Part shown: one piece after another, positions 4,039-38,550 of the stretch | Position numbering within the stretch: the stretch's first letter is position 1 | Layout of the letters: the number at the start of each line of letters is the position of its first letter | From: Candidatus Accumulibacter sp. ACC003 | Lineage (GTDB): Bacteria; Pseudomonadota; Gammaproteobacteria; Burkholderiales; Rhodocyclaceae | DNA length: 64,000 nucleotides | NCBI RefSeq assembly: GCF_907163085.1 | Contig: NZ_CAJQTX010000009.1 | Location: 577,346 to 641,345 of the forward strand | Direction: 5' to 3' | The notes under the pieces: generated by a model | What the model saw: only the letters and a program-made list of their open reading frames with translations | What the model was told of the DNA's origin: nothing | The model's database searches: none | Made by a program: the position numbers and the translations under genes

Positions 4039-4062
4039 ATTACTGACCGCTCAGTCATTAAT
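4039..4062. promoter_or_regulatory. Palindromic operator upstream of the TetR-RND operon
   Basis: Nine-base arms ATTACTGAC (4039-4047) and GTCATTAAT (4054-4062) are inverted repeats with one mismatch around a 6-base spacer. The site lies 8 bases before the tetR start. TGAC...GTCA half-sites of this kind are typical TetR/AcrR operators, so autorepression of the tetR-adaptor-pump operon is likely. Confidence 0.7.
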
Positions 4063-4070
4063 ATGCCGCA

Positions 4071-18236: not shown

Positions 18237-18278
18237 GGCCATGATCAACGATAGAGGGCAGCGCCGCCGGGGTCGCCG

Positions 18279-18803
18279 ATGATCCTCTCGCTGATCGCCG
18301 CAGTCGGCAGCAAGCGGGCCATTGGCCTGCGCCAGCAACTGCTCTGGCACCTGCCGGAGGACCTGCGCTACTTTCGTGAAACGACTCGCGACAAGACCGT
18401 GATCATGGGCCGAAAGACCTGGGAATCGCTGCCGGCGGCCTTTCGGCCATTGCCCAGGCGGCATAATATCGTCGTGAGCCGCGACCCGGCCCTGCTGACA
18501 GACGGCGCCACTCGCGCCGCTTCGATCGATGAAGCGATGGCAGCGGCGATCGCCATTGCCGGCGACGCCAGCGAGGTCTTCGTGATTGGTGGCGCAGAGC
18601 TTTATCGGCAAACCTTGTCGCTGGCAAAACGGCTTTACCTGACCGAAGTCGCCGATGACCGTCCCGGCGACTGCTTCTTCCCCGAAATCGCGCCCGGCGA
18701 GTGGCGCGAGGTGTCGCGCCGCGCCGGCAATGTCCAGCCAGCAGATGCCGCTGCGACTGAGCGACCACCGGCCTTCGATTTCGTGGTTTACGAACGCCGC
18801 TAG
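18279..18803 (+). CDS. folA: Dihydrofolate reductase
   Basis: A 174-residue enzyme reducing dihydrofolate with NADPH, pairing metabolically with thyA just upstream. The N-terminal A-I-G-L...L-L-W-H-L-P-E-D-L motif places the catalytic acid at residue 27/28. M-G-R-K-T-W-E-S-L-P and the G-G-A-E-L-Y NADPH-binding motif follow. It is the last housekeeping gene before the BREX island; brxA ends on the opposite strand 85 bases later. Confidence 0.96.
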   Translation: MILSLIAAVGSKRAIGLRQQLLWHLPEDLRYFRETTRDKTVIMGRKTWESLPAAFRPLPRRHNIVVSRDPALLTDGATRAASIDEAMAAAIAIAGDASEVFVIGGAELYRQTLSLAKRLYLTEVADDRPGDCFFPEIAPGEWREVSRRAGNVQPADAAATERPPAFDFVVYERR

Positions 18804-18888: not shown

Positions 18889-19608
18889 TTAGTCGCGGAG
18901 CGAAACAAACTGAGTACCGGCTCCTTCAGATCGAAGCTCCAAATAGGAGCTATTCGAGACCATGTAAGCCAGCGACTGGTCGAGAACGAACGGAAAAAGC
19001 ACGGCCATCGATTGCAGCGACGCTATTGACACGGACCTCCCGGCGTAGCGCAGCGTGGCTTCCACGAGCCACACTGCTACAGGCTCGTTTTCGGTTAGCG
19101 CAATCGGGGAGCAACGAATTAAGCGTTTACCTTTTTCCACTCGCTCTATAGCGCCCCAGCCAGCCTGCGACTGTAGAACCATATTGCTCATGCGATAGAT
19201 ACCTTCGCGCTCACCGTAAATCTCGCTCATCCGCCGATGCACCTCTGCGGAACTACAGTCGCCCTGCAGCGCAGACAGGCGGCCCACCAGTTCGGCAACC
19301 TTGCCGAAGAACGGGTAGGTTGCGATCGCCATTCCCCAAGCCAACGCTGCGACGGAGACACTCGGATTTGCCTTGAAGATCTCGGCGCCACGATTGGCGA
19401 AATCGACAAGGTCCACTCGCGGTTCAAGCCAAAGTCGGTTCAGAACCGTACGAGTCTTCTTTCTGGCAGCCAAACCAAGGCCGGCGACATCCAGCAGATC
19501 ATTCAGCTCATCGAGCTTGGCCAACCCGGCACGCACCTTCAACGCTGCAGCTACCCAGTCGAGCTGGATGAAGCGGTCGAAGCCAATTTGTGGGGCGGTC
19601 AGACTCAT
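18889..19608 (-). CDS. brxA: BREX protein BrxA (DUF1819-like)
   Basis: A 239-residue protein at the end of the BREX operon, starting 4 bases after the pglZ stop. Its size, position and N-terminal helical pattern (L-V-D-F-A-N-R-G region, then A-L-A-W-G-M-A-I-A-T-Y-P-F-F) fit the small DUF1819/BrxA proteins that close type 3 BREX loci. BrxA proteins in other BREX types are small DNA-binding proteins; the exact role is unsettled. The call rests on context more than on a diagnostic motif. Confidence 0.75.
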   Translation of the reverse strand: MSLTAPQIGFDRFIQLDWVAAALKVRAGLAKLDELNDLLDVAGLGLAARKKTRTVLNRLWLEPRVDLVDFANRGAEIFKANPSVSVAALAWGMAIATYPFFGKVAELVGRLSALQGDCSSAEVHRRMSEIYGEREGIYRMSNMVLQSQAGWGAIERVEKGKRLIRCSPIALTENEPVAVWLVEATLRYAGRSVSIASLQSMAVLFPFVLDQSLAYMVSNSSYLELRSEGAGTQFVSLRD

Positions 19609-19612
19609 TCAG

Positions 19613-21607
19613 TCAACTCACATACCTGACTTTGATAAAGGGCACCAACAGTTCTTCAACCGAGATGCCGCCGTGTACCACGGCAGGTTCGCCTCGCTGC
19701 ATGAAGGCTGTACGTCCGCCGGCGAATAGGGCCATGAAGTTCGCAGGCAGTCCAGCGATATCCAGACGGTAGCTGCCCGGATTGGCCGCAGCCGATTCTG
19801 TGGCCAAGGCATCACTGCGGTAAGTTCGGACCCGCTCGCCGCGCATCTCGGCGGCTACACCTTGGTTGGGCCGACCCTGGCCGACCGCCTCCACATTCCC
19901 GTGGTCGGCAGTCAGGTAGACGTTGAAGCCCTTGTCGAGCAGCAGCGAGAACAGACGATCGACGAAACCCGTCTCACACCAGCCCTCGATTTGGGTGGCG
20001 ATGCCACGTTTGCCGAGCACCGAACCATGCACGATCTCATCCACGGTGTCGACCACGATGCCAGCGATCTTGATCAACGGTTCAGACAGGCCCGCGTCCA
20101 GATCAGCCAATTGGTCGATACGCTTGATGCCCTTGCGGTATAGGACCTCATTGACGCGCAAGCCTTGGTCCTGCCAGAACCGGGACCACTGGTTCGGCTC
20201 TGGTGAAGTTGTGTCGATCGTGTCCGCGAACTCTCGTGGTTTGAGCCCTGAGAACAGCGCCTGTCGGGACACCGACGTCAATGTCGGCAGCCAGGCAAAA
20301 CAAGCGCTCTCGTCGAAGCCGAGCTTCGGTGTGCGTCTGGCCAGAGACTCCCGGATCTGGACCCACTGGTCGACGGCAAGGCCGTCGAACACCAGTAGTG
20401 CGATCTTGCTCTCGCCAGAGCTGCGTCGCATGGAAAGAAAGCGCGGCACGTGGTGAACCATGACCGGACCCTTCGCCACGGGCAGGGATGGCAAGTCAGC
20501 GTAGTGCTTGGTTACCCACTCCCGCAAGCGCTCATCGCTAGCGAGTTGCAGCTCGCTGATCAGGGTCTTCAGCCCTTCGGCACGAGCCGAGTCCAAGCCG
20601 TGGAAGCGGGCGATGACCTCACCCAAGCGTCGGGCCAGGTTGGCCCAGTCGCGGCATGAGGATTCCAGCGTTGGCAGTGACTGGAGAATGCCCTTGATGC
20701 CCTCCGCTACGAGGTTGCGCAGTGCCAACGGGTCTCGCACGATGCCGGCCTTCGCCCACTCCGGAATGCGGGCAGGCAGACCCTGAACGGCAAGCGGGTG
20801 GAGCAGCCCATCCAGGAACATCGAGTCGATGATTACCCGCACGTCCGGGTGCTCAAACGGCACTTCTGCGGTAGCCACAAGATCCGTCGGCCTAGGCTCC
20901 CCGGTACGTATCCCGGTCACGCCAAGGCGCGACAGGTAGCGATACCATGCATCCTGGATCACGCGAAGTAAGGCGCTTTTCGACCCGAACAGTTCGCCGA
21001 TCGGCAAACCCTTGAACTCCGCATGCTCGCCAAGCACATGGGCCACATGCGCAGCCAGGACCGCCGGCAAAGGGGAATCACGGTAGTGCAGTCGCAACAA
21101 CTCGCGCCACAGGTCCTCGGGCCGCGAAATCAGATGCGGGCTGATCTTGAAGATGTGCGTCAGGATGAACTCTTTGGTCGCCAATTCACCGAGTGCCTGT
21201 GGTGCGTGCTTGGCCTGCGCAGCGAACAGCGCCTCATGGTGTTCACTGCCGATCTGCCGAACGACTGAGTAGCTGAGTTTCGGGAACAGGTCGGCAAGAC
21301 TCAGGCTCACGCGACGCGCTTGCCTGAGGTAGTCCCAGGGCAGATCACTCGTGTTGGTGCCGCGCAGGTGCAGCACAAGTGACCTGGCTGGCGCGGTGTC
21401 CCCACGGTCCCATGCGCAGCGATAGCGATCTTCATACTCAGCACGGAACGCGACCGAGTCTTCGAAGGGCATCAGTTCGAAGCCACGCTCGCGCAGGCTT
21501 GAAAGTAGCTGCTCATCCAACAGCACATCGTCGGGGTCGGCGGCGACCCACAAACGGGCCAGGTCGGCCGGAAACTCCTTGAGGATGCGGTCAATCCATG
21601 GGCTCAT
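19613..21607 (-). CDS. pglZ: BREX phosphatase-domain protein PglZ
   Basis: A 664-residue protein with an alkaline-phosphatase-superfamily (PglZ) domain in its C-terminal half. The metal-binding L-L-V-F-D-G-L-A-V-D places Asp408 at the strand end. A T-L-T-S-V-S-R nucleophile region follows, then T-A-D-H-G-N with Asp568 and His569, and H-G-G-I-S-V-E-E at the C-terminus. PglZ is one of the two core proteins of all BREX systems and is needed both for host methylation and phage exclusion. Its start overlaps the brxHII stop by 4 bases. Confidence 0.93.
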   Translation of the reverse strand: MSPWIDRILKEFPADLARLWVAADPDDVLLDEQLLSSLRERGFELMPFEDSVAFRAEYEDRYRCAWDRGDTAPARSLVLHLRGTNTSDLPWDYLRQARRVSLSLADLFPKLSYSVVRQIGSEHHEALFAAQAKHAPQALGELATKEFILTHIFKISPHLISRPEDLWRELLRLHYRDSPLPAVLAAHVAHVLGEHAEFKGLPIGELFGSKSALLRVIQDAWYRYLSRLGVTGIRTGEPRPTDLVATAEVPFEHPDVRVIIDSMFLDGLLHPLAVQGLPARIPEWAKAGIVRDPLALRNLVAEGIKGILQSLPTLESSCRDWANLARRLGEVIARFHGLDSARAEGLKTLISELQLASDERLREWVTKHYADLPSLPVAKGPVMVHHVPRFLSMRRSSGESKIALLVFDGLAVDQWVQIRESLARRTPKLGFDESACFAWLPTLTSVSRQALFSGLKPREFADTIDTTSPEPNQWSRFWQDQGLRVNEVLYRKGIKRIDQLADLDAGLSEPLIKIAGIVVDTVDEIVHGSVLGKRGIATQIEGWCETGFVDRLFSLLLDKGFNVYLTADHGNVEAVGQGRPNQGVAAEMRGERVRTYRSDALATESAAANPGSYRLDIAGLPANFMALFAGGRTAFMQRGEPAVVHGGISVEELLVPFIKVRYVS

Positions 21608-24435
21608 ATCGAACCCACCCGAAGCATCATCACCGCGTTGAGATCCGGCACGCAGGCATCTGCATCGTCCAATGCCGTCATGCGCGTCTGGTGCTCGGCA
21701 TCCAGCCGCTTACGGCGATGCTCGCGAACGGCTGGCAAGCCAATTCGACCAATGGCCTGATAACGGGCGTCATAGGCGTACTTGGCGCGCTCTCGATCTT
21801 CCTTCAGCCGCGAGCGGTGCTCCTCGAGCAGTTCAGAGAACAAGCTCTCACCTTGAGTCTTGGCAGCAGTCATGGAGGCCTCGAACCAATGCACAGCCTG
21901 CTCGCTGCTGGCGGCGCTCTTGATCTCGATCGCTTCAGTCAACAGCAGATTCCAGATGCGCCTGGCCGTGGGTACAAAGGTTCGCCCGTCGTCCGTTGCG
22001 AAAACCGGCAGGAAGCGCTTGCGGCTGAGGCCCTCAGCGGCAAGGCTGATCTCCCAAAGCGACCAGACACCCTGCACCGTCTCAGGCAAGCCGGTGATCT
22101 TGACGAACGGCAGCGGTTGCCCGATCACGCAGCGTGGCAGTTCGCTGATCACAGCTCTGGCGCGAGGGTCCTCCAACGTGACCCATTCCCAATCGGGGTT
22201 CTGCTCCGCGGTCCTGGCGTCGAAGCAAACCTGCGTCGATTCGCTGCCGTCGTCCCACTTGATGCGCCATGCGTCGCCTTTCTTCACGGCACTGCCGCCG
22301 TGGGCCGTAAGACCTGTGGTGATGGCACGTTCCAGCCAGAACTGCGCTGGGTGGTCGCGCCATTTGCGGGCCTCAATAGCATCCAGCGTATGGGCATCTG
22401 CCAGCAAGTCGGTATTCTGTCGCTCGTCGGCGACCTTGTCGCGGACCTGGGTGATCACGGCGTCGCACGCCTTTTCGATCGAATCCGGATCCTGCAGACC
22501 CTGCACGAACAGCTCGTCGAAGATCGGCTCAGCTTCGACCGAGTCCATCACGTCAGATGCCTTGTCCACGCCGAACTCTTGCGCGATGACTTCAAGCTTG
22601 CTTTCCAGTACCTGGCGGACACGGTGCTCGACAGTGTCTTCAAGGACAAAGTTGATGGCGCGCACCACATGGCGCTGGCCGATGCGGTCCACGCGGCCGA
22701 TACGCTGCTCGATTCGCATCGGATTCCACGGCATGTCGAAATTGACGACGACGTGACAGAACTGCAGGTTCAAGCCTTCACCACCAGCATCAGTTGAGAC
22801 GAGAACCCGGACGTCGCGCGAAAAGTCCTGTTGCGCCTTAGCGCGCGTATCGAGATTCATGCTGCCGTTGAGCAGGGTCACCGAGAAGCCACGGATTTCC
22901 AGAAAACCCGCCAGCATTGCCTGTGTCGGCACGAACTCCGTGAAGATCAAAACCTTCATGGTTGGGTCGTTCTCTTCCTGCTGCAGCTTGTAGATCAGTT
23001 CCAACAGGGCTTCGGCCTTGGCGTCCGTGCCTTGGGCTTCGGTTTCGCGGGCCAGAGTCAATAGCAGGTCAACCTCGGCCTTCTCCTGCACCGAGCCCGA
23101 CGTCCGCACAGCGATGTCCACTTGGCTCTGACCGTCCAACTCCGCCCACTCGTCCATCTCGGTCGAATCGAACAGCGATGCCTGGGGCTGGGGTTCATCG
23201 AGCAGGGCTTGCCGCTTCTCCAACGTGGTTCGAATGGCAGCGGTGCTGGACGTCACCAGCCGCTGCATCAGGATCATCAAGAAACCGATGTGCCGCTGCT
23301 TGGCCGCCAATGCTCGATTGTAGCCATGGCGCACGTAGTCGGTGACCGCCTCATACAGCCGTTGCTGGGCGCCGTGCCGGTCTTGCCACGCCACGGCCTG
23401 GAGCCGTGTGATGCGAGGCTTGAATAGCGCCTGGCCTTCCGCATCGATGGCGTCGCGCTTCTCGGTGCGAATGACGAACGGCCGCACGCGATCACGGCTG
23501 ACGCTGCCCTCATCGGGGAAGGAGTCGCGGTCGATCAACTGCATCAAACGCAGAAACTGGTCGGTCTTGCCTTGGTGCGGCGTGGCCGACAGCAGCAGCA
23601 AGTACGGCGCTGCTTCGGCCAGTGCGGCCCCCAGCTTGTAACGCGCCACCTGGTCGGTGCTGCCGCCCATGCGGTGTGACTCGTCGATAATCACCAGATC
23701 CCACGAGGCCGCAATCAAGTCCTCGAATCGCTCGCGGTTGTAGTTGTTCAGCTGCTCCAGGCTCCAGCCTTTGCGGCCTTCGATCGGCTTAACCGAATCC
23801 AGTGAGCAGATTACCTGGTCGTGCAGCCGCCAGAGGTTTTCCTCATCCTCAGTTGCGTTGACTCGCCACTGCCGGAAGGCAGTGAGTTCGGCCGGGTCGA
23901 CGAATTGCAGCTTCTCACCGAAGTGCAGCCGCATCTCGGCCTGCCACTGGCGCACCAGCCCCTTGGGCGCCACCACCAACACGCGCTTGGCCATGCCGCG
24001 CAATTTCAGCTCGCGTAGGATCAGCCCAGCCTCGATGGTCTTGCCCAAGCCCACCTCGTCCGCCAGCAGGTAGCGGATGCGGCCACGGCTCATGGCGCGG
24101 TTGAGTGCGTAGAGCTGGTGCGGCAAAGGGACTACGCTGGACTGGATGGGCGCCAGCAAGAGCTTGTCTTCCAAGGCGTCCAGCAGCTTGGCTGCCGCTG
24201 CGGCGTGGAGGATGTGCTCGACCGTTGGCTGAATGCTGTCGAGCTTGGCCAAGTCCTGCGGTCGCGCACGTACCACCGCGTCCCTGGTGGGCAGCCAGAC
24301 GCGGTAGGCGGTTTCGCCCCATATATCCTGCCTGTCCACCACACGGCAGGGCGCGGCGTGGCGCGTATGCAAGCACCAGTTGCCGACGACCCAACTCACG
24401 TCAAGGCGCTCCCACGGCGAGGCGCCGCAATCCAT
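21604..24435 (-). CDS. brxHII: BREX SNF2-type helicase BrxHII
   Basis: A superfamily 2 helicase of about 943 residues. The P-loop A-D-E-V-G-L-G-K-T has its Lys at residue 132 and the Walker B is D-E-S-H at about 251-254. Motif III S-A-T-P-H-Q-G and the C-terminal helicase motif Q-R-I-G-R-V-D-R-I-G-Q are intact. The frame opens at 24510, but that start would bury 110 bases in the upstream DUF4276 gene; the ATG at 24435 leaves a 35-base overlap and is preferred, though its ribosome site is weak. A SNF2 helicase between pglX and pglZ marks the type 3 BREX layout. Confidence 0.9.
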   Translation of the reverse strand: MDCGASPWERLDVSWVVGNWCLHTRHAAPCRVVDRQDIWGETAYRVWLPTRDAVVRARPQDLAKLDSIQPTVEHILHAAAAAKLLDALEDKLLLAPIQSSVVPLPHQLYALNRAMSRGRIRYLLADEVGLGKTIEAGLILRELKLRGMAKRVLVVAPKGLVRQWQAEMRLHFGEKLQFVDPAELTAFRQWRVNATEDEENLWRLHDQVICSLDSVKPIEGRKGWSLEQLNNYNRERFEDLIAASWDLVIIDESHRMGGSTDQVARYKLGAALAEAAPYLLLLSATPHQGKTDQFLRLMQLIDRDSFPDEGSVSRDRVRPFVIRTEKRDAIDAEGQALFKPRITRLQAVAWQDRHGAQQRLYEAVTDYVRHGYNRALAAKQRHIGFLMILMQRLVTSSTAAIRTTLEKRQALLDEPQPQASLFDSTEMDEWAELDGQSQVDIAVRTSGSVQEKAEVDLLLTLARETEAQGTDAKAEALLELIYKLQQEENDPTMKVLIFTEFVPTQAMLAGFLEIRGFSVTLLNGSMNLDTRAKAQQDFSRDVRVLVSTDAGGEGLNLQFCHVVVNFDMPWNPMRIEQRIGRVDRIGQRHVVRAINFVLEDTVEHRVRQVLESKLEVIAQEFGVDKASDVMDSVEAEPIFDELFVQGLQDPDSIEKACDAVITQVRDKVADERQNTDLLADAHTLDAIEARKWRDHPAQFWLERAITTGLTAHGGSAVKKGDAWRIKWDDGSESTQVCFDARTAEQNPDWEWVTLEDPRARAVISELPRCVIGQPLPFVKITGLPETVQGVWSLWEISLAAEGLSRKRFLPVFATDDGRTFVPTARRIWNLLLTEAIEIKSAASSEQAVHWFEASMTAAKTQGESLFSELLEEHRSRLKEDRERAKYAYDARYQAIGRIGLPAVREHRRKRLDAEHQTRMTALDDADACVPDLNAVMMLRVGSI

Positions 24436-25060
24436 CCCGCAGTTTTCCAAAACTGGGAGAGAGGTTCCGTTCCGGATCCATGAACGGACCAATCCGATCG
24501 GCCCATTCATGCTTTACCTGCCCCGGCAATGGCCAGCCGGCTTTCTTTATCGCCGCCGATCCGCCTGAATGCACGGCATCGGCGAGCAGCTCCCACGTAT
24601 CACATGCGCTGTCTTGAAGATACTTGCCAAGCACATCCAGTTTGGCACGTGGATAGGCCGCCAACAAAGCATCCCGGTCACCCAAATACCAGGCTTCGAT
24701 TTCCTCGATCGCGAGCCTGAACAGCGTATTGGGCGCTGGGCTGCAGGCTGCGGCGGCCAATTCCAGTTCGCCCAGGAAGGTAGCACAGTCGCGTTTGTCA
24801 GTATCGAGCACGACCACAACGGCATCGACTCCTGGCGTCTTGCCATAGCCCCGCAACAGCTTTGGCAACTGATCAAGCAGGATTCGCTTCGCGGGATCAG
24901 CTTTCGTCACCAGGCCTTGCGGAATTCTGCCGATGCCTTTGTAGGCATGTAAACGCCAGCTATGCGGCTCGCCTTGGGGTCCCAGCAGCCGAGGTAGCAA
25001 CACTCGCAGCAAGGTCTCCCCTGAACTGTCCTCGACCAAAATCTCGATGTGCATGCTCAC
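24401..25060 (-). CDS. DUF4276 family protein, Toprim-like putative nuclease
   Basis: A 219-residue protein of the DUF4276 family. A Toprim-like pattern is visible: an acidic residue at the end of the first strand (I-L-V-E-D, Glu10), a D-T-D motif at 86-88 after a run of valines, and A-I-E-E-I-E-A-W at 117-124. Toprim domains use exactly such Glu and DxD residues to bind metal in OLD nucleases and in AriB of PARIS. The start overlaps the end of the preceding ABC-type ATPase by 4 bases (ATGA), so they are a translated pair. Nuclease activity is inferred, not shown. It is not a standard BREX component. Confidence 0.8.
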   Translation of the reverse strand: MSMHIEILVEDSSGETLLRVLLPRLLGPQGEPHSWRLHAYKGIGRIPQGLVTKADPAKRILLDQLPKLLRGYGKTPGVDAVVVVLDTDKRDCATFLGELELAAAACSPAPNTLFRLAIEEIEAWYLGDRDALLAAYPRAKLDVLGKYLQDSACDTWELLADAVHSGGSAAIKKAGWPLPGQVKHEWADRIGPFMDPERNLSPSFGKLRDGLRRLAVGAP

Positions 25061-26286
25061 CTCGCGTCGAGATAGTCGCTATACCAAAGGCCACCCAAAG
25101 GTAAGCCTTCAGCCACGAGGTTATTCACATCTACCAACTCGGAGACGCGACGCACGGTGGAATAGCCATCCGTGCCTTTCTCCAGGATCCACACCTCTTC
25201 AGGTGCCAGCGCGTCAACAAAGTAGGGCTGGTGCGTGGTTACGAAGATCTGTGGTGCGTTCTTCTTGCCAGTGGCATGCAACCGGAACTCCTGGGCCAAC
25301 GCCTCCAACAGCTTGTGATAGAGGCCGTTCTCTGGCTCTTCGATGCAAATGAACGGTGGCGGGTCAGGGTCTTCCAACAACAGCAGGTAAGCAAAAACTT
25401 TCAGCGTGCCATCTGACATCTGCTGGGCGAAGAATGGGTCGCCAAAAGCGCCATCGTTAAAGCGTAGCAACACGCGTTTGTCTTCAGTCACCTGCGTGTC
25501 GATACTGGCAATCCCGGGAATTTTGGCGGCAATGCGTTCGAGGATGGATTTGAATCGCGCTTTGTGCTCGCGCTCCATGAACTGCACAACGTTGCCAATG
25601 TTATCGCCGTGGATGTTCAAATGCCGCTGCGGGCCAGCGCTCGGCAGACTACGCGCCGCATCCGGGTAGAAGTAAGAGAGATACCAGCCTTTGAGGAAGT
25701 CTCGAAAGCGCTTGATACGCGGATGCTCCTTGAGGGTGCCCAGGGTGGCGATGCCGAGTTGCCGTGTGTCGGTCAGTTCGACGGGGGTCTGGGCACGATC
25801 CTCCTCGCCTTCAAGCTCAACGGCTTCTTCACCCGCCCATACAGTGCCCTTGCCGTGGTGCAGTCGCAGAAAGGGGTACGGCCGGCCGTGCTTCTGGCCC
25901 TTGCGACGCTGCTTGAGCAGCTCGGCTTCGACAAAAGGCCTACCCGATGAGTCCAGCGCAATCGCCAATTCATAGGTGATCGGCCGCTCATTGGGCGCTT
26001 CGCGGTAATAGATTTCAAACCGGATAGGCTCATCTATCCCCAATGAACGAAGACGATCAAATCCCCCTCGTTGTTTCATGTCGCAGGCGCTTTCCACATC
26101 GGCAGACAAACAATCCGCAACGAACCCGAAGGCATCGAACAAGGTGCTCTTGCCCACGCCGTTCTTGCCAATAACCACAGCGAAAGGCGTCAATGGCTCC
26201 CCGGCTTGCTGACCGGAAAGCTTGCCCAGCGTCACGTCGCGCAATGCACGATAGTTCTGTACCCGAAACCCTTCGATGACAGCCAT
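25057..26286 (-). CDS. ABC-type AAA ATPase (OLD/PARIS AriA-like), partner of DUF4276
   Basis: A 409-residue SMC/ABC-style ATPase. Walker A is G-K-N-G-V-G-K-S-T at residues 40-48. A degenerate signature, M-S-D-G-T, begins near 290, Walker B is I-C-I-E-E-P-E-N at about 313-320, and the switch histidine is in V-T-T-H-Q-P. The layout matches the ATPase half of OLD-family and PARIS systems, without a fused Toprim; the Toprim-like part is the next gene. The ATG follows the pglX stop with no gap. It probably senses an invader or a counter-defence protein and controls the DUF4276 effector, which is inference. Confidence 0.85.
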   Translation of the reverse strand: MAVIEGFRVQNYRALRDVTLGKLSGQQAGEPLTPFAVVIGKNGVGKSTLFDAFGFVADCLSADVESACDMKQRGGFDRLRSLGIDEPIRFEIYYREAPNERPITYELAIALDSSGRPFVEAELLKQRRKGQKHGRPYPFLRLHHGKGTVWAGEEAVELEGEEDRAQTPVELTDTRQLGIATLGTLKEHPRIKRFRDFLKGWYLSYFYPDAARSLPSAGPQRHLNIHGDNIGNVVQFMEREHKARFKSILERIAAKIPGIASIDTQVTEDKRVLLRFNDGAFGDPFFAQQMSDGTLKVFAYLLLLEDPDPPPFICIEEPENGLYHKLLEALAQEFRLHATGKKNAPQIFVTTHQPYFVDALAPEEVWILEKGTDGYSTVRRVSELVDVNNLVAEGLPLGGLWYSDYLDAR

Positions 26287-29088
26287 CTATCTGTCCTCCA
26301 TGCGGGTAAGCGCCTGGTCGTACCAGAGCAGCAGTTTCTCGTCTTCCTGCAGGGCCTCTTCCGGAACTTTCTGCGCGACGGCGATGATGGTCGCGTAGTC
26401 CCGGTTCCCCCACGCGTGCTTGAAACCGGTGCGCATGGCTTCAAGCCGGAAGGTTTTCAGGCGGCGACCAGTAAAGGAACGGTAGGTCTCAAACTCCTTG
26501 AGTAGCGCCCTATCCCTGATCATTTCCAGGTCACGCGCCTTGCTCGGGTCGGGCACATACCAGCGGTCAGTCGCCTTGGCTTTCAGGCGAGGGTCAGACT
26601 TTGCCAGATTGCGGAACTCCTGCCAATTCGTCGAGAGATAGCTGTGAATCTGCGAAGGAATCTCAAAAGCGTCCTTGCCTTTGGGGTCGTAGCAGAGGAA
26701 GTTGCTTTCCAGCAAATATGAGAGTTCGGGCTTGGCCTCGTGCTTCTTCCAGCCGGCCCCCAGTTGTTTGATGAACTCGGGATGAATTTCCTGATAGGTC
26801 GAGGGCTTTTTCTTCAGGAAGTCGGACAGCCAGTCGATAGCGGAGCGTTCATCGGCGATAAACATTTCCATCTGCGGCGCTTTGGTGGTTTGCATCCGCT
26901 TCTTGTCGTATTCACTGACCTGCTCGGGCAGGAAGACCATGCCATCCCGTTCCGCAAAGCGCTGTGACAGACCACCCTGGAATTCCTGGCTGGAGAGCGG
27001 TACCGGGAAGCTATGCCGGACAAACCAGGCCACCAGCCGGTCGAAAATAATGCGCGGATCGCGCTCGGCGACGAACTCGATTTGCCCATTCTTGAGCTTT
27101 ACGGTTGGCAGGTATTTCAGGTGAGTGCGGACAAAATCCCAAGCCGACTCCTCGCTGCCACCCTCCTTGGCGAAGCGCTCTTCCATGCCACCGTTGGGCT
27201 TATAAGCGGAGATTACTAGGTCTTGCTTGACAGACGTTGTATTCGTCACGGCGTTGAAGCTACCTTGCTTCTTGTCGAGGGCCGAGACGTTGGCAACCAC
27301 AAAGCCAGCTTCCTGGAGAGCGGTTTGGATAGCGTTCCAGACAGTTGACTTGGTATTCGAAAATTCAACCGTCATCCATCGGCCAGGCTTGAGAATTCGG
27401 AATGCCTCCTGAAAGCAGCGGGTCATCAAATGGCGATAGTTCCCTATATCTTTTTTCTGCGTTTTGTTCTCAATTGCTTCGTGCTGGATGTTCGTATAGA
27501 CCTTCAGCCATGCCTCCCAAAGAAAGTTCAGTTCTGAATACATCAGGTTAGAACCGAATGGAGGATCTAGAAAAATGTAGTCAACCTGCGCGCCCTCAGC
27601 ATATAGATCAGTTGCTGAAGAAGTTGATATGAAAGTGCACCCTGATCCGCAACTTATAATTCCTCGCTTTGTTGCGGCGAGACGGCTTTCGAGTATATTC
27701 AGCCAGTTTTGCTCACCAGAAACGGAGGGAAGATAAAGTGTGCCGGCTGTGTGAGGTTTCATTGGTCCGGTATCTTTCTGAATCCACCGAAGCGGTAAGA
27801 AGCGAGCTGTCTTTAGACCCACAGTGTATCCGCCAAGAAGAGCTAGTCTAGTAAGGGGCAAACGTGATTTTTGATACATTGCCGCAAAGGCGGTTAGGTT
27901 CCGACGCGTATAAAGATGGTGAACATGCGAAAGACCGATTCTCAGAGGCTCACCAGTCTTATCCCCTGCTGGAATAAGGTCTGTTGGAAGTTCGAGGCCA
28001 ATCTTTCTCGATTCAATCCTTTCGATGACATTTAGGTCAAAGGTGTCCGGCGTCTTCTCGAATCTTTTCTTGCCAACATTATAATTAATAAGGACAGGTA
28101 CTTGCTTTGCTTGCCTCACCGTCGTATTTATCTCGATGTCAAACTTTGTCACCCATGCGCGATCCAGATTCCGTTTTGTCACTTCAGATGAGCAATGCGG
28201 ACACGCAAACTCATCGCGAACCTGACCAGCGACCTTGTCTACAGCAGCGCTCCAAAATACAACCTCGCCTGCACAGTAAGGGCAGATAAATACGTCTGAC
28301 CAGACGGTGTAGTTGATCCGCCCCACCGTTGTGCCATCACTGTGAAATGTTTCATACATCCAGCCATATTCAGATTCCACCTGAAACAGTATTGATTTAG
28401 CGTCCTTTTCAAACTCATAGACATCCCCCGGAGAGTTGTAATTGGAGGCAATAAAGGTCGCAGCGGGCGAAAGATCATTGAGAATCGCCGTTCGTGCCCC
28501 GATCTTTGAAAACGGTTTCCAAATATCCACGCCATTTTCCTTTTCGGACGCAAGGATGGTTCCATCCGCCTCGACTCTATAACCGAGCGATTGCACTACT
28601 GATCTGTCAGCGCAAAGCTGAGCTGCAACCCCGGTCATGCCCGTCCCACAGAATCCATCGAACACCACATCGCCCGGCTGCGTGTAATGAAGGATGTACC
28701 GCATGATGGCCTTATGCGGCACCTTGGTGTGGTAGCTATGGGCGTTGTAGATCGGGTCGTTCTTGCCCTCGCTCACATCCGTCGCAAACGGCTCTTTGTT
28801 ATACGGGATCGATGGGTCATAGGGCTTGCCGTAATGCTTGATGAAATCCTCAATGAAGGGATTCGGGCAGGCGGTGTAATAGGGCGGATCGGACAGCGCC
28901 AGAATGTCCTCGTCGGTGCCGATGGGAAATCCTTCGATCTCGTGAAAGGCTGGCTCTTTCAGCTTTTCGCGAAGGATCACCAGGTAGTGCCCACGCCGGG
29001 CTTCGTCGTTTGGGAATGTCTGGCCGAGACATTCCACTGGGCCGGATGGCTTAGGCTCCTCGGCGAACAGGGAGTGGGAGGTTGTCAT
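26287..29088 (-). CDS. pglX: BREX type 3 DNA methyltransferase PglX (PglXI)
   Basis: A 933-residue DNA methyltransferase. The SAM-binding motif F-D-G-F-C-G-T-G-M-T-G is at about 143-153. Two D-P-P-(Y/F) motifs are present, D-P-P-Y at 67-70 and D-P-P-F at about 508-511. A zinc ribbon (C-P-Y-C ... C-P-H-C) lies between. The C-terminal third is a helical region likely used for target recognition. PglX methylates host DNA so that BREX spares it. The start overlaps the upstream AlbA_2 gene by 4 bases. The middle of the gene (roughly 27230-28640) is AT-rich compared with both ends, a sign of mosaic origin. Confidence 0.9.
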   Translation of the reverse strand: MTTSHSLFAEEPKPSGPVECLGQTFPNDEARRGHYLVILREKLKEPAFHEIEGFPIGTDEDILALSDPPYYTACPNPFIEDFIKHYGKPYDPSIPYNKEPFATDVSEGKNDPIYNAHSYHTKVPHKAIMRYILHYTQPGDVVFDGFCGTGMTGVAAQLCADRSVVQSLGYRVEADGTILASEKENGVDIWKPFSKIGARTAILNDLSPAATFIASNYNSPGDVYEFEKDAKSILFQVESEYGWMYETFHSDGTTVGRINYTVWSDVFICPYCAGEVVFWSAAVDKVAGQVRDEFACPHCSSEVTKRNLDRAWVTKFDIEINTTVRQAKQVPVLINYNVGKKRFEKTPDTFDLNVIERIESRKIGLELPTDLIPAGDKTGEPLRIGLSHVHHLYTRRNLTAFAAMYQKSRLPLTRLALLGGYTVGLKTARFLPLRWIQKDTGPMKPHTAGTLYLPSVSGEQNWLNILESRLAATKRGIISCGSGCTFISTSSATDLYAEGAQVDYIFLDPPFGSNLMYSELNFLWEAWLKVYTNIQHEAIENKTQKKDIGNYRHLMTRCFQEAFRILKPGRWMTVEFSNTKSTVWNAIQTALQEAGFVVANVSALDKKQGSFNAVTNTTSVKQDLVISAYKPNGGMEERFAKEGGSEESAWDFVRTHLKYLPTVKLKNGQIEFVAERDPRIIFDRLVAWFVRHSFPVPLSSQEFQGGLSQRFAERDGMVFLPEQVSEYDKKRMQTTKAPQMEMFIADERSAIDWLSDFLKKKPSTYQEIHPEFIKQLGAGWKKHEAKPELSYLLESNFLCYDPKGKDAFEIPSQIHSYLSTNWQEFRNLAKSDPRLKAKATDRWYVPDPSKARDLEMIRDRALLKEFETYRSFTGRRLKTFRLEAMRTGFKHAWGNRDYATIIAVAQKVPEEALQEDEKLLLWYDQALTRMEDR

Positions 29089-30950
29089 TGTTCTGGTTCC
29101 TGTTCGGTTGCGACACCAGCTTGCCCGTGCATCGCCTTGAGTTTTACCCCGACATCTGTGAGCACGTATTGCTGCTTGGGGGAGCGTGGCTTGTCAGGGA
29201 GGGTCAGGCGCAGCACGCCGCCGGCCAGCAGTGGCTCCAGATGAGTCGTTACAAAGTGCGGGCGATGCTTGAAGCCCGTGTGGGTCATAAATTCCGCCAT
29301 CGAACGAGGCACGTCGGCAAAGCCGATGAGCCGCCACTGCATGTCGGACAAGCGATCAAGTGACCGATCAAGCTCGCCTGCACCTACGCCAGCTTGATCG
29401 GTAGCTTGATCGGTACTCTTTTCGCCGCCAAGTTCTGCTGCAACGTGTTGATTTTCTGGTGGAACGCTGGGCTTTCCGGCCAAGAAGTGAGGTCGCAAAT
29501 GCTCGGCCAGGCCGAATACGTTGCCGGTTTCTCCCTGCGCCACCAGCAAGGCTTGTACGGTAAGCCGCTGGACAAGCTGGCGGGCGTCCGTACCGGAAAG
29601 GCCGGTGAGCGCCTTCACGTCGGCAATGTCAATCTGGCCCTTGCGGGTCAGGTAAGCGAAGACATCGGCTTCCTGCCCGGAGAGGCTCACACCCAAGCTG
29701 GCCTGTGCCAGAAGCTGGGCTTCGGTAATGAGTTTTTCCTTGCGCAGACGCAAGCGGAAGCTTTTTTCGGCCTTGTGGTTCTCGATTTCCGGTGGCATGT
29801 AACCCAGCCTCCGCCAGCCGTCGAAGATGGCGCGCACGCCGGTGCCGCCCTGGTCGGATAGGCCGATACGACGGAAGGCGTTGACGATACTGGGGTTGCG
29901 AACCTCCTTGTCGCCGGGGTCGAGCAGTTGCTCGCGCGAGCCGAAGGCGTCACCGGGATTGAAGAACTCGGTCTGGTCTCGGAAGAAGCGAATGACAGGC
30001 ACGCGGGTGGTGTCGCCAAAGTCCTGATGGATCAGCAGATTGATGGCGGCTTCGCGGAAGGAGATGTAGTCCGGCGGATCGTCGTCACGGCGCAAAGTGC
30101 TGGCATCCACGGCAAAGGGGCGCTCGCTGTGGCGGAAGTAGAAATCGACGATGGACTGCCACGCCTTGATGAGATTGTCTTCGACGGTAAGGCGGTCGGC
30201 CCAGCGCACGGCGGAGTCGTAGTCAGCGCTGGCGTTGCGGTAGAACTGCACGTCCGTCACCATGCGCGGCAGCACCTGGCGGACGTATTCGCCGCTGCCC
30301 AACACCAGAATGGCGGCGCGGGTGGGGCGCAGCACGCCGCCTTGCTCAACCAGAAAGCCCCAGTTCCGCAGGAAGGTGGTGTCGTCAGCCGCCGTATCCT
30401 TGCCGGGGTTGCTGGCGGCGAAACGGGTGCGATACCAGCGCACGGAGGGTTCGTCAAAGCAACGGCTGGTATCAACATCCAGCGGTTCGGCGTCGTAGCG
30501 AATGTTTGATGCGTCGCGGATGAAGCGCAGCAGTTCGTCGCGCGTGCAGGTGTCGTCGCGTCCACCACGGCGGATGTATGCCTTGTGCGGTGTGCGATCA
30601 ATGAAAGCGGGTTTTTCGTTGCGTTTAGCCTCGGGCACATAGAAGGCCAGAACCGTGCCTTCAGCCAAGGAATGAACTGATCCATTGATCGGCAGGAATA
30701 CGCTGATCTTGTTCTGATCACGTACCCAGCCGAGAAAAGTGTTCTGCACTTCGTCGGCATTGGTCACTCCGGTAATGGTGAAGGAGCCGTTGGCCTGCTT
30801 GACGCCAAATACCAAGTGCCCGCCCGCCGTGTTGGCGAAGGCGCTGACGGTTTCCAGCGAATCCTTGGGCGCGGCCCACGCCGCTTCCTTGAATTCGATG
30901 TCGCTCCACTCAATCGACTGGAGGCGTGCCTGCAATTCTTTTCTATCCAT
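29085..30950 (-). CDS. AlbA_2 (Schlafen-type) ATP-binding protein inserted in the BREX operon
   Basis: A 621-residue protein of the COG2865 type. The N-terminal AlbA_2 domain shows I-E-F-K-E-A-A-W followed by V-S-A-F-A-N-T-A-G-G-H-L-V-F-G-V. A GHKL-like ATP-binding region follows (R-E-A-A-I-N-L-L-I-H-Q-D and G-G-T-G-V-R-A-I-F), then winged-helix segments towards the C-terminus. Between them is a short repetitive linker (T-D-Q-A twice, later L-D-R-S-L-D-R) encoded by inverted 12-base repeats. Such proteins occur in several BREX and phage-defence loci as accessory regulators or effectors. It starts 104 bases after brxC ends and overlaps pglX, so it is part of the operon. Confidence 0.82.
   Translation of the reverse strand: MDRKELQARLQSIEWSDIEFKEAAWAAPKDSLETVSAFANTAGGHLVFGVKQANGSFTITGVTNADEVQNTFLGWVRDQNKISVFLPINGSVHSLAEGTVLAFYVPEAKRNEKPAFIDRTPHKAYIRRGGRDDTCTRDELLRFIRDASNIRYDAEPLDVDTSRCFDEPSVRWYRTRFAASNPGKDTAADDTTFLRNWGFLVEQGGVLRPTRAAILVLGSGEYVRQVLPRMVTDVQFYRNASADYDSAVRWADRLTVEDNLIKAWQSIVDFYFRHSERPFAVDASTLRRDDDPPDYISFREAAINLLIHQDFGDTTRVPVIRFFRDQTEFFNPGDAFGSREQLLDPGDKEVRNPSIVNAFRRIGLSDQGGTGVRAIFDGWRRLGYMPPEIENHKAEKSFRLRLRKEKLITEAQLLAQASLGVSLSGQEADVFAYLTRKGQIDIADVKALTGLSGTDARQLVQRLTVQALLVAQGETGNVFGLAEHLRPHFLAGKPSVPPENQHVAAELGGEKSTDQATDQAGVGAGELDRSLDRLSDMQWRLIGFADVPRSMAEFMTHTGFKHRPHFVTTHLEPLLAGGVLRLTLPDKPRSPKQQYVLTDVGVKLKAMHGQAGVATEQEPEQ
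29351..29414. repeat. Four 12-base repeats forming a long inverted repeat inside the AlbA_2 gene
   Basis: AGCTTGATCGGT occurs at 29391-29402 and again at 29403-29414. Its exact reverse complement is at 29363-29374, and a 9/12 version lies at 29351-29362. Around a 16-base loop this gives a 24-base-pair stem with three mismatches. The repeats encode in-frame tetrapeptides. Confidence 0.85.
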
Positions 30951-31054: not shown

Positions 31055-34000
31055 CTACTCCACCACGAACCGCAACTTGCTGGCGTCCTTGCCCTTGCAG
31101 CGCTCATTAAGGAAGCCTTCGAACCGCTTGCGGAGGTCTTCCGGCGTGGCTGGCGAGCCACCTTGTAGCAAGGCCTTCTTGATGTCGTCGCCACTGACGC
31201 CGATCTTCTCCAGTCCTGATAGGGCTTCCTGCACGGCGCTGACGAAATCCGGGGTCACGGGGTCGGCCAGCTTCTTGGCCGCCACAAATCTCTTGACTAG
31301 CTCTCGTGCTGATGGCTTCAGCAGGTCAAGGTTGGCCTGAATGATCGGGTCGTCCAGGTTGTCGAGCAGCGTCTGCTGCCAGCCGTCGAGAAGCCGGTCC
31401 AGTTCCTCATCCATTTGCTTGAGCACATTGGCGGCCGGCAGGAAGTCGCCTTGCTCATTGGCAGGGCGGAAGCTGCAGTGCGGGCAGTAGGGACTGGCAG
31501 TTAGCGCCGAATCCACCAGTGACGCGCAGCTCTTGAGCTTGTCGAGCTTGTCATCGAAGGCGGTGAGTTGGCTGGTGGGCATCAGCGCGATTCCTGCCAG
31601 GGCGCGCATGGCGACCAGCCGCGAGTCTTTGCGCAAGGCAGACTTGGTCTTGTCTTCGGCCACGCCCAGGCGAGCCTTGCTGTGCTGGGTAATGTAGGCG
31701 TTAAGGTAGTCCTTCTTGAGCTGGACCAGGGTCTGCCGGTAGTTGGCTACATGCTGCGCGTTGCGGTCCAGCGCGAGTTTGTCCAGGATGTCCTTGCGGG
31801 TGCTCTGCGCCTGCTTGACCCAGGGGTGATCGCTAGACAGCACCATCTCGGCTTGCGACAGATAGGCGGCTGTGCTGCCCAAGTCCGTCACCAGTGCCAG
31901 CAGCTTCTCGACGGCGGCCAAAACATCGAGGTTCCTCCTCTGAGCGTCGATGTCGTGCGAGCCAATGCGCAGGTTCTTCAGCTTGCCGACCGTGTTGTAC
32001 GGCGTCAGACCCTCGGTGAAAGTCTTCAGCGCTTCCAGGCGGGTGCGCCAGTCACGGATCTCGTCATCGGTGAGCAGAGGCTTGCCCCAGAAGGTGACCT
32101 TGCCTCGCAGATCCGTACCCGCCGTTAGGACACGGCTGACCAGCTTGGAGACGGCTTCGAGAAGCTGCTTGACGGGTTCCTCAGAGCCTTGCGCGGCCAG
32201 TTGCGCCAAGCCGGGCGACAGGCCGAGTAGTTCGAACAGTGAACGCAGAACGGCGACGTTGATCTCTTTCGGCGCTTCGACATGCTTGAACTGCTTGAGC
32301 TCTTCGAGCCCGCGCTCGGCCAGCAGGGTGATCTTGCCGGAGTCGATCTTGTCGCCAGTGATCGCCAACACGATGTCGCCGGAGTAGACGAGGCCGCCCA
32401 GCACGGCCACCAGCAGGTCAGGCTCCAGGCGGAATTTCACCGGGTGGAAGTACTCCACGTCGGTTTGTCCGTTCAGCAGCTCGCTACGGTTCAGCACCTG
32501 GCCATGCCCCTTGGCCTTCAGGCGGCTCAGTACTTCTTGAGCGTAGCGTGATCGGCCTGGCTCGATGCGGTCACCGTCCAGCATCTCCAAGGCGTCGAGC
32601 ACGGCATTGGCGTCTTTGGTGCGGGTGCCGCCGGCCAGTGCCTTCAACGCATTACTCACCAGTTGCTTGCGGTTGGACTCGGTGACCAGCACCGGGAACG
32701 TGGGGTACTCGGGCGAGACTTCTGCAAACTGCTGGTTGAGCGCCAGGCCAGAGACGACGTTGACGATGTCGCGGAAGTTGGCACGTTCGTCAGAGCCCAG
32801 GCGCAGCTTGTCGCGGATGGAGACGCCCTTGGCCCAGTCCTGGAGGGTTTTGGTCTTACCCTGGCAGGTAACCTGGAACGCGGTCATCTGTTTTTCCTGT
32901 AGCCACTTGCTCATGTCGCGCAGGGCGTCCTTGGCTTTGTCCAGGTAAACGCTTTTTGCACCACCACTGGCAGTGGAGGCAAGGTCCTGCGCTGCGGCAT
33001 AGAACGCCAAGTGACGCTTGATGGCATCGTCGAGACCCTTGAGTCGTATGAACACTTCGTCCGACTTATTTCCGTCACGGAAGCGTGGCGGCTCAAAGGG
33101 CTGGATGAAGTAGATGTAGAAGTCGCGTTCGGGCTGGGCGGTGGGTCGATCGTTGGGTGCTCCGAAGAACAGATAACCGTTGCGATCGACACGGCGGTCT
33201 TGCCATTCGATCTGGTACTGCCAGATCTGGTGGCCCGTCACGTAGTTGTTCTCGTCAGTACGCTCCATCAACTGCTTAATAGCGCCGTAGTAGGCACGGT
33301 CCAGCACATCGTCAGACAAGGCCTCGGCACGCTTGTCGATCTGTGCGTCGTAGTCGACGTCCTTTTTCAGGTCGAGGTAGTACTGCTCGGTGTCCGGGGC
33401 CTTGGAGATGAACTGGCCGTTGACCGTCTTGACGATCTCCCGCAGGGTGGTCTGCACAGCGGTGAGCAGGTCGTCGGCTGGGTCACCTCCCAGGTCTTCA
33501 ATGCCGGGTTGGTACAAGCAAAGTGTGTCTCGCAGCTCGGCAGCGGTTGGCCCGACCGGGACGTAGATGTCGCCGCCTGTGGTTAGCCGATGCACCGACA
33601 GGCCTGCGATCACGCGCTGCGCCATCGGCTTGTACGCCGGGCGGACGAAGGCCTTCAGCACGCGTTCAGCCAGGACTTCAGACACCTTCAGGACGGGGCC
33701 GATACTGGGGTCGGAGCGCAGCACCGAGTTGGAAGTCACGGTCTCCCAAAACTTGTCGTAGCCGATCAATCCTGGGCGATCGCTGGGAACTTCGTCATTC
33801 AGTACGGCTTGAATCTGGTCGCGCAAGGTGACCAGGGCGCCGCGCTTCTCAGTGAAGATCAGCCGCTCGAAGGTACCGATGTACTCGGGGTGGACAGGGA
33901 ACAGCCGCACGTACTCGTCCATGCGCTCATTCATCGAGCTGTAGAACTTGGCAAACCTGGTGAGGTAGGTCCGGATCTTGTTCTGCTGGTCAGTCGTCTT

Positions 34001-34780
34001 CTTCAGCAGGCGCTCGGCGACCACGAAGCTGACGTCTTGCCGAGCCAGAAGCACCTGGGTGAATCGGTCTTTCACACGACGCAGGCTATCGGCGACGTGC
34101 TGGAAACGGTTGCTATCGAAGATGGCTTCCTGCACGCCGGCAACGAAGCGGAAGCGCAGGTGCTTGCTGACTTCACCGATCTCGCGCAGGAAGGACAGAT
34201 CCAGAACCAGATCGTGATCTTTGCGCGACCGCAGGTAGTCAAGAAACTCGTCGACCACCAGCAGCACGCCGTGGTTGGGGTGAACCTCGGTGAACGCGGC
34301 CATCATCTCCTCGAACGCCGCTTTGTTGTTGACCACCTTGTCGGCCGCCGGGAACGAGTAGCTGACGCCGTTCTTTTCAAGGAAGACCTCAAGCTCCTGG
34401 GTGATGATGTCCCGCAGCGACATCTGGCTGGATATCTCGATGCGGTGGACCTTGAACTTGCCCGCGATCTTTCCCGCGGCTTCGGCAACCTTGGGGTGAC
34501 GGATCATGGGCTGGTAGGTCGCATCCTCGGCCACAAGAGATAGCACCGACATCAAGTGCGACTTACCGGTGCCGTAGTTGCCAACCACCAGCACGCCCAT
34601 GTGGTCGACGGACTCGTCGAAGGAGAGCTGCGAAATCATCTGCTTGGCGATCCGCTCGGCCATGTCGTTGGACATGACGTAGGTCGACACGAGCTTCTTG
34701 GCCTCGTCGGGTCGATTGGCATCGAGCAGTTGTATGACCGATTCGATCGGTTCGAATTGAATGAGATCGCCGTAGCGCAT
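31055..34780 (-). CDS. brxC: BREX ATPase BrxC (PglY-like)
   Basis: A 1241-residue AAA-type ATPase, the usual size for BrxC. Walker A is G-N-Y-G-T-G-K-S at residues 67-74 and Walker B is L-V-V-D-E-F near 175. The central part is long and helical, and a single C-P-H-C near residue 1090 suggests a partial zinc site. BrxC/PglY is a core BREX component required for exclusion, acting with PglX and PglZ. It begins 18 bases after brxF. The N-terminal sequence follows the type 3 branch rather than the type 1 BrxC, as does its pairing with BrxF. Confidence 0.92.
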   Translation of the reverse strand: MRYGDLIQFEPIESVIQLLDANRPDEAKKLVSTYVMSNDMAERIAKQMISQLSFDESVDHMGVLVVGNYGTGKSHLMSVLSLVAEDATYQPMIRHPKVAEAAGKIAGKFKVHRIEISSQMSLRDIITQELEVFLEKNGVSYSFPAADKVVNNKAAFEEMMAAFTEVHPNHGVLLVVDEFLDYLRSRKDHDLVLDLSFLREIGEVSKHLRFRFVAGVQEAIFDSNRFQHVADSLRRVKDRFTQVLLARQDVSFVVAERLLKKTTDQQNKIRTYLTRFAKFYSSMNERMDEYVRLFPVHPEYIGTFERLIFTEKRGALVTLRDQIQAVLNDEVPSDRPGLIGYDKFWETVTSNSVLRSDPSIGPVLKVSEVLAERVLKAFVRPAYKPMAQRVIAGLSVHRLTTGGDIYVPVGPTAAELRDTLCLYQPGIEDLGGDPADDLLTAVQTTLREIVKTVNGQFISKAPDTEQYYLDLKKDVDYDAQIDKRAEALSDDVLDRAYYGAIKQLMERTDENNYVTGHQIWQYQIEWQDRRVDRNGYLFFGAPNDRPTAQPERDFYIYFIQPFEPPRFRDGNKSDEVFIRLKGLDDAIKRHLAFYAAAQDLASTASGGAKSVYLDKAKDALRDMSKWLQEKQMTAFQVTCQGKTKTLQDWAKGVSIRDKLRLGSDERANFRDIVNVVSGLALNQQFAEVSPEYPTFPVLVTESNRKQLVSNALKALAGGTRTKDANAVLDALEMLDGDRIEPGRSRYAQEVLSRLKAKGHGQVLNRSELLNGQTDVEYFHPVKFRLEPDLLVAVLGGLVYSGDIVLAITGDKIDSGKITLLAERGLEELKQFKHVEAPKEINVAVLRSLFELLGLSPGLAQLAAQGSEEPVKQLLEAVSKLVSRVLTAGTDLRGKVTFWGKPLLTDDEIRDWRTRLEALKTFTEGLTPYNTVGKLKNLRIGSHDIDAQRRNLDVLAAVEKLLALVTDLGSTAAYLSQAEMVLSSDHPWVKQAQSTRKDILDKLALDRNAQHVANYRQTLVQLKKDYLNAYITQHSKARLGVAEDKTKSALRKDSRLVAMRALAGIALMPTSQLTAFDDKLDKLKSCASLVDSALTASPYCPHCSFRPANEQGDFLPAANVLKQMDEELDRLLDGWQQTLLDNLDDPIIQANLDLLKPSARELVKRFVAAKKLADPVTPDFVSAVQEALSGLEKIGVSGDDIKKALLQGGSPATPEDLRKRFEGFLNERCKGKDASKLRFVVE

Positions 34781-34798: not shown

Positions 34799-35269
34799 TT
34801 ACTGAATTTCGAAGGGGACCAGGCCGGCCAGGCCGTAGTCGCGATGTTCGGGATGCCCAATGTCGGCATAAGTCAGGCGGCCCGTTCGTGCGTCGCCCTG
34901 CAATTCGCCTGGCCAAACGGCCACGACGCGTTGGGCGTGCGCGTGTCGTTTCAACAGATCGAGGGGGTCGAGCTGGAGCGAGCGGTCGAACAAGATCTCG
35001 ATGTGGTCCAGCAACAGCAGGTCGCCGCTGGCGTGCTGATCAGCCAGCTCACGCAAGATGGTTGTGGTCTGCAGATGGCGTTGCCTCTGCGGGATTGCCG
35101 CCAAGCGGCGACCCAGTTCCGCACCGACGTTCATGGGAGCAGCCTTTACCCGCGTTGCAAACGTGACCAGCAGTACGGTCTTGGCAGTGTCCGAAGCTCC
35201 AACCAGAAGGATAAGCTTGCTGTGGAGGGCAGCAACATCGGTGGCCAAGCGTTCAAGTTTCTCAAGCAT
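34799..35269 (-). CDS. brxF: BREX type 3 ATPase BrxF
   Basis: A 156-residue P-loop protein at the head of the operon; BrxF is the marker of type 3 BREX. The P-loop is at residues 24-31 (G-A-S-D-T-A-K-T) and a Walker B-like L-L-L-L-D-H-I-E lies in the middle. The second glycine of the canonical GxxxxGK(S/T) is replaced by alanine, so nucleotide binding may be altered. The C-terminal P-F-E-I-Q tail ends 18 bases before brxC. Confidence 0.87.
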   Translation of the reverse strand: MLEKLERLATDVAALHSKLILLVGASDTAKTVLLVTFATRVKAAPMNVGAELGRRLAAIPQRQRHLQTTTILRELADQHASGDLLLLDHIEILFDRSLQLDPLDLLKRHAHAQRVVAVWPGELQGDARTGRLTYADIGHPEHRDYGLAGLVPFEIQ

Positions 35270-38486: not shown

Positions 38487-38550
38487 TGTCGTCTCCTCTG
38501 CAAAAAGCCTGCTAACTGCCAAAAATTGATAACTGCTACCCTGCGTGCGA

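Follow-up and report, generated by a model that had tools for sequence, protein, structure and literature searches.

What are two genes from outside the core set doing in the middle of a type 3 bacteriophage exclusion (BREX-3) operon? The question is raised by a stretch of 64,000 nucleotides from Candidatus Accumulibacter sp. ACC003 (NZ_CAJQTX010000009.1, positions 577,346 to 641,345), referred to here as the window, in which a gene for an ABC-type ATPase and a gene for a DUF4276 protein separate the methyltransferase gene pglXI from the helicase gene brxHII. An initial annotation had described them as a coupled non-core pair with the division of labor of PARIS (ATPase AriA plus Toprim protein AriB) and had suggested that the pair could be a built-in second line that fires when a phage blocks BREX. 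Both open reading frames (ORFs) were recovered at the coordinates it had given, on the minus strand, and the coupling was as described. The ATPase ATG (26286) abuts the pglXI stop codon TAG with zero gap, the ATPase and DUF4276 genes share four bases (GTGA, 25060-25057) given a DUF4276 start at GTG 25060, and the DUF4276 stop codon (24403-24401) is followed by one base and then by GTG 24399, the probable start of brxHII. Judged from its sequence, the pair is the candidate system catalogued in PADLOC as HEC-01. It looks like an ATPase-Toprim defense pair, a roaming module found here in a slot common to many modules.

Two protein families and a predicted Toprim-type fold

The family matches of both proteins are above chance. 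The ATPase matched Pfam AAA_21 at 141.7 bits (cut-off 27) and AAA_15 at 51.2 bits, while the DUF4276 match, at 32.7 bits, was narrowly above its cut-off of 30.2. The PADLOC models for the two HEC-01 components matched strongly, with HEC-01A (PDLC04182) at 637 bits (2.4e-192) on the ATPase and HEC-01B (PDLC04205) at 306 bits (4.1e-92) on the DUF4276 protein. By model matches and adjacency, the pair has a HEC-01A-type ATPase and an adjacent HEC-01B-type protein. The source of HEC-01 is presumed to be a preprint by Payne and colleagues (10.1101/2024.01.29.577857). The DUF4276 protein matched only DUF4276 in Pfam and only HEC-01 models in PADLOC, and an NCBIfam search with it gave no match. Against the sequences of solved structures, the DUF4276 profile gave 0 matches at E up to 1 and the ATPase 0 matches at 0.01. 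HEC stands for Hma-embedded candidate and comes from a guilt-by-embedding approach (PMC12988326). The name refers to embedding in Hma, whereas the window pair sits in BREX-3.

The sequence motifs reported in the initial annotation were borne out by alignment. Walker A (residues 40-48) and Walker B of the ATPase are intact, and the signature SDGT (291-294) and H352 are, like the Walker motifs, invariant among 34 aligned sequences, the window included. All 41 aligned DUF4276 sequences, that of the window among them, share E10, D86, D88, E119, E120, and E122; in another set of 43 sequences, E119 is only nearly invariant. The position of these residues fits Toprim motifs, with E10 near strand 1 (4-9) and D86 and D88 near strand 3 (80-86). 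The predicted model of the DUF4276 protein (predicted local distance difference test score 88) has a Toprim-type core, and on a second look its four best structural matches were all Toprim regions of OLD proteins. The invariant residues also run in the same order as the catalytic residues of OLD. Because the model best matches OLD Toprim and the residue order agrees, a split between an ATPase and a Toprim protein is supported at the fold level, as is the prediction that DUF4276 has a Toprim-type fold with an OLD-like helical part. DUF4276 may act as a nuclease, and the ATPase may control it, which gives this family a concrete, testable role as a putative OLD-type Toprim nuclease.

The likeness to PARIS therefore stands as a division between an ABC ATPase and a Toprim protein but not as membership. 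PARIS is defined by an AAA_15 or AAA_21 ATPase (>32 / 27 bits) with a neighboring DUF4435 protein (>27 bits) (PMC9122126). The window ATPase has the scores for the first component and also matches AriA models (116.9 bits). DUF4435 was absent from the 12 Pfam families listed for the 41 DUF4276 sequences at E up to 5, so the window pair is not PARIS by definition. The two systems have in common an AAA_21/AAA_15 ATPase gene with a separate Toprim-type gene, and PARIS has likewise been found embedded in BREX (PMC11341690); the effector is DUF4435 in PARIS and DUF4276 in the window. AriB chains were not among the 50 structural matches listed for the DUF4276 model, which excludes nothing.

The best structural match of the predicted model is to class 2 OLD proteins and GajA of Gabija, which appear to share with the pair an ABC ATPase, a Toprim-plus-helical nuclease, and the order of catalytic residues. 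In OLD and Gabija, the ATPase and Toprim are in one chain, whereas the window pair is encoded by two overlapping ORFs, and Gabija neighbors a UvrD-type helicase gene whereas the window pair neighbors brxHII. The window ATPase also matches AbiLi of AbiL (2.1e-26). Weak RloB matches were obtained with 2/41 DUF4276 sequences (best E 0.0021) and with none for the window protein.

Distribution of the pair and its recurrence in BREX-3

Relatives of the pair were located in two collections. In a sample of 398 genomes from the window's phylum, the HEC-01B model matched in 46, and 26 matches, including the window, were close (>220 bits). A tblastn scan with the window BREX-3 genes and a few others, which other BREX types would escape, covered the regions around these 26 matches (in most cases 8 kb per side or to the contig end) and around a weaker match, L132. 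Only the window and genome G037 (2/26) had a close pair in BREX-3. The second collection consisted of 42 named loci from a search retrieving close relatives only, five of which are in BREX-3 (L035, L044, L045, L049, and L071). In six others, a type I HsdR gene precedes the pair (identified by Pfam in L046 and by likeness to the L046 gene in the rest); one lies behind an Eco57I/YhcG set, three behind an N6/N4 methyltransferase gene or a piece of one, and two beside, or one gene from, an SbcC-like gene. In this partial list of neighbors, the gene preceding the pair may also encode a ribonucleotide reductase (L056), release factor RF3 (L070), acetolactate synthase (L061, L064), a His_biosynth protein (L034), or an HD phosphohydrolase (L032, L033). 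In the phylum sample, 39/47 same-strand neighbors were scanned; PADLOC models matched at most four of them at 1e-10, and of the 45 Pfam families assigned to neighbors, the 25 listed are mostly housekeeping. To the eight neighbors outside the scan, L120 contributes three BREX genes and L132 three further genes, one of them HsdR-like, and the tally leans away from defense genes because these eight were left out. Since most examined pairs lie elsewhere, the pair was rejected as a BREX-3-specific component. It is not standing BREX equipment, and the proposal of a built-in part was not upheld.

The two genes travel closely together. Their spacing is -10 to +8 bases in 68/68 pairs. In 66/66 comparisons with the window, DUF4276 is the more divergent of the two proteins (median identity 66% vs 81% for the ATPase). 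The DUF4276 frame is broken in L057 and L069. Pairs are also present on four viral contigs from IMG/VR (L133, L134, L135, and L136), so phage-like elements may carry the module; three of seven viral-contig matches (L137-L139) were read as unrelated phage proteins and dropped. At L060, 31 bases separate the pair from the gene before it (1249-4746), which encodes an N6/N4 methyltransferase of 1165 residues. Fragments of a similar gene are found ahead of the pair in L043 and L054, perhaps from a BREX-related system.

Co-occurrence with BREX in other genomes, which the initial annotation had asked about, was found, and at the same junction. Eight BREX-3 loci carry the pair (the window, the five named loci, L120, and L196), and in 8/8 its place, so far as it can be read from the contigs, is between pglXI and brxHII; the contigs of L035 and L049 do not extend to pglXI, and L071 shows only a recognizable start of brxHII. 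Some of these intervals are compound. In L049, an intact pair is followed by an A2-type ATPase with a 171-residue protein, a HEC-01 stub, and brxHII. The stub (3488-3607), the remnant of a second HEC-01 copy, adjoins brxHII and comprises ATPase codons 1 to 40, breaking off at Walker A. In L196, the order is A2 ATPase, 169-type protein, intact pair, and brxHII. L045 (6907-10660) has two tandem ATPase-partner pairs and then an AlbA gene between pglXI and brxHII, the first partner being weakly HEC-01B-like.

The seven BREX-linked copies tested do not form one clade. In a tree of 67 rows, the seven BREX rows then known need six changes, at least five of which are forced by well-supported branches, and 110/500 shuffles were as low, making these rows no more clustered than many shuffles. 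In a tree of 46 rows, with L196 and without L120, seven BREX rows need five changes, and a single clade for them was rejected (approximately unbiased test, p-AU 0.000124); on that ground, a single insertion inherited with BREX-3 was dropped for the rows in this tree. Both trees were made by a 'quick' method; L035 fills 42% of columns, and L073 and L132 are outside the 67-row tree. The pair seems to have entered the same BREX-3 spot more than once, with repeated insertion, rather than loss, as the proposed source of the pattern.

Gaps around pglX and competing explanations

The junctions of BREX-3 operons were surveyed in the window's phylum and three plasmids. Operons were sampled by PglZ in 8/398, 7/369, 7/300, and 2/140 genomes over the cut-off, plus 3/6 plasmid matches. 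The samples overlap, with the window genome in three sets and G331 in two, and the survey counts the window and the below-cut-off L126. A gap was counted when it exceeded 250 bases and both neighbors were visible. Such gaps were found at brxF-brxC in 1/15, brxC-pglXI in 11/17, pglXI-brxHII in 12/19, brxHII-pglZ in 0/22, and pglZ-brxA in 0/23. The junctions flanking pglX thus account for 23/36 as compared to 1/60 for the others (Fisher p 5e-12, overstated because the surveyed rows are related). In L125 (7620-20000), two different pglXI genes flank brxC, which distorts the size of two gap values.

The pglXI-brxHII junction is empty in seven loci (L121, L162, L163, L166, L167, L168, and L197). 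In L162, the stop codon of pglXI overlaps the likely start of brxHII, which indicates that the pair fills a clean gap. Elsewhere the junction holds HEC-01 (window, L120, L196), HEC-03 with Ppl, NsnB/NsnC, an A2 ATPase with a 169-residue protein, AlbA, a small PIN-like pair (in L164, the PIN name is a motif reading of our own with no database match behind it), or two proteins of 467 and 703 residues. A protein of about 500 residues is present at three loci (L160:12485-13984, L161:10076-11605, and L192:12633-14159). At L123 (7987-14787), the insert has five genes (Ppl, a 423-residue protein, the HEC-03 pair, and a 228-residue protein).

The pair is probably an autonomous anti-phage module of two genes, similar in kind to OLD, PARIS, and Septu; it would be mobile and would add an independent layer in BREX-3. 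The ABC ATPase would sense something phage-made or phage-changed and would hold or release the separate DUF4276 Toprim nuclease, which would cut nucleic acid (DNA or RNA) by two-metal catalysis. The module would move between bacteria, sitting alone, behind restriction genes, or in the pglXI-brxHII gap. There it would be read with the BREX transcript and may provide a second, independent anti-phage layer.

Several points weigh against this explanation. The margin of the fold match is moderate (10.2-9.1 vs 7.6 for unrelated rows), and the OLD metal-binding position E404 is not conserved, being G14 in the window protein. Profile-profile comparisons of DUF4276 with OLD Toprim (4%) and DUF4435 (0.6%) were in register though non-significant, with a pglZ control at 1.5%. 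The constant adjacency holds for the pairs examined. Many contigs are short pieces of metagenome-assembled genomes, and BREX genes past the contig end would be missed. In the 46-row tree, only three changes are forced and 18/500 shuffles were as low, so some clustering of BREX rows exists; parsimony changes may be gains or losses, which are indistinguishable.

The alternative that comes closest is that the pair is a passenger only, the recombination-prone flanks of pglX catching and keeping mobile defense genes without a functional link to BREX. We lean against it, although it and the favored explanation are largely compatible. The many unrelated modules at one junction, the concentration of gaps at the pglX flanks, and the decayed remnant in L049 are consistent with it. 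The gapless start and stop coupling with pglXI and brxHII, on the other hand, suggests selection for shared expression, and the pair is presumably co-transcribed with BREX.

That the pair is a line dedicated to BREX, firing as PARIS might when a phage anti-restriction protein blocks the system, is improbable. The ATPase and Toprim split, the gapless placement, and the constant junction agree with it, and it has been proposed for OLD-TOPRIM modules in BREX by Rakesh and Krishnan (PMC12839542). However, most close relatives examined are outside BREX-3, the window pair lacks DUF4435, PARIS needs neither EcoKI nor BREX in the cell to work (PMC9122126), and PARIS inside Salmonella BREX gave no response to Ocr or Gp5 (PMC11341690). 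This is important to note because it corrects the tempting view that such a pair must guard BREX. A toxin-antitoxin unit stabilizing the operon, suggested by the tight overlap and by the 'putative AbiEii toxin' label of the Pfam ATPase domain (a family label only), is very unlikely given the complete catalytic motifs in both proteins and the non-toxic single deletions of PARIS (PMC9122126).

Both modules of this kind and the notion of a backup layer have been published before. Rakesh and Krishnan 2026 (PMC12839542) count at least 1242 taxa with OLD-ABC modules, most prominently TOPRIM-linked, in BREX or related loci and at least 1017 with Schlafen proteins, and they propose that modules of this sort counter anti-restriction. 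Went and colleagues 2024 (PMC11341690) report that, of ~9000 genomes with both pglX and pglZ, ~7000 have genes between the two, with PARIS in 2.21% of the ~2000 of these genomes holding a known system. The type 1 BREX accessory genes at pglX-pglZ, such as BrxU and PARIS, are likewise cargo defense genes next to pglX (PMC11341690), whereas the window operon is of type 3, in which brxHII is the neighboring gene and inserts also occur between brxC and pglXI. For type I systems, the RptR paper (PMC12255303) suggests a comparable hotspot between hsdS and hsdR. In the literature searched, with preprints and supplements outside its scope, no mention of DUF4276 was found, including with BREX or an ATPase; nor were its Toprim assignment, repeated entry at pglXI-brxHII, or the junction counts, which are new here. 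The gaps on both sides of pglX are where BREX-3 takes up extra genes and are a place to seek new defense modules.

Comparison of pglXI between operons bears on how these gaps are filled, as its degree of conservation often departs from that of the other genes. The window and L162 are 91% identical in brxHII, 84% in pglZ, and 50% in pglXI, while against L045, parts of pglXI are 98-100% identical and the other genes 57-76%. A low-identity stretch around residues 300-500 of pglXI is common to all rows. This pattern is what swapping of the pglX region among operons could leave, though fast divergence of target recognition would explain part of it. It is conceivable, though doubtful, that the middle of BREX-3 is a plug-in bay in which pglX and its flanks form a recombining block between the conserved outer arms brxF-brxC and brxHII-pglZ-brxA, so that loci swap the target-specifying methyltransferase together with interchangeable sensor-effector modules such as the window pair. 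If true, each new specificity may come with its own fail-safe.

The BREX-3 operon of the window

The operon is complete, with all six core genes in the order brxF-brxC-pglXI-brxHII-pglZ-brxA from 35269 down to 18889. It holds three non-core genes, the pair and an AlbA/Schlafen gene between brxC and pglXI that was absent from the initial annotation.

Features of the BREX-3 operon, in window coordinates
Feature	Coordinates	Strand	Basis
brxF	34799..35269	-	NCBIfam BREX_3_BrxF 164.9 bits, cut-off 50
brxC (DUF6079 ATPase)	31055..34780	-	PADLOC BrxC 1768.8 bits; Pfam DUF6079
Gene with AlbA_2/Schlafen domain, HATPase_c_4, and Fic-like C-terminal domain	29085..30950	-	Pfam
pglXI methyltransferase	26287..29088	-	PADLOC PglX/PglXI 1386.6 bits
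OLD-type ABC ATPase (HEC-01A), proposed sensor	25057..26286	-	PADLOC HEC-01A; Pfam AAA_21
DUF4276 protein (HEC-01B), proposed OLD-type Toprim nuclease effector	24401..25060	-	PADLOC HEC-01B; Pfam DUF4276
brxHII helicase	21604..24399, probable start GTG 24399	-	PADLOC BrxHI/BrxHII 1415.5 bits; junction sequence
pglZ	19613..21607	-	NCBIfam BREX_PglZ_3 723 bits, cut-off 250
brxA	18889..19608	-	PADLOC BrxA 233.9 bits

In the case of brxHII, GTG 24399 is likely the true start, as judged from the junction sequence. The longest ORF (from 24510, +37 residues) was rejected; the PADLOC BrxH model aligns only from its residue 41. In L032, L033, and L039, sequence at the end of DUF4276 that seemed to match brxHII was read as DUF4276 DNA in another frame. 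Relatives of the AlbA/Schlafen gene occur at the brxC-pglXI junction in L121, L166, and L167 and at the pglXI-brxHII junction in L045 and L195. The operon is flanked by thymidylate synthase and dihydrofolate reductase genes (17415-18803) on one side and on the other by a cell-division cluster with FtsZ (37305-38522), FtsA, FtsQ, D-Ala ligase, and Mur ligase.

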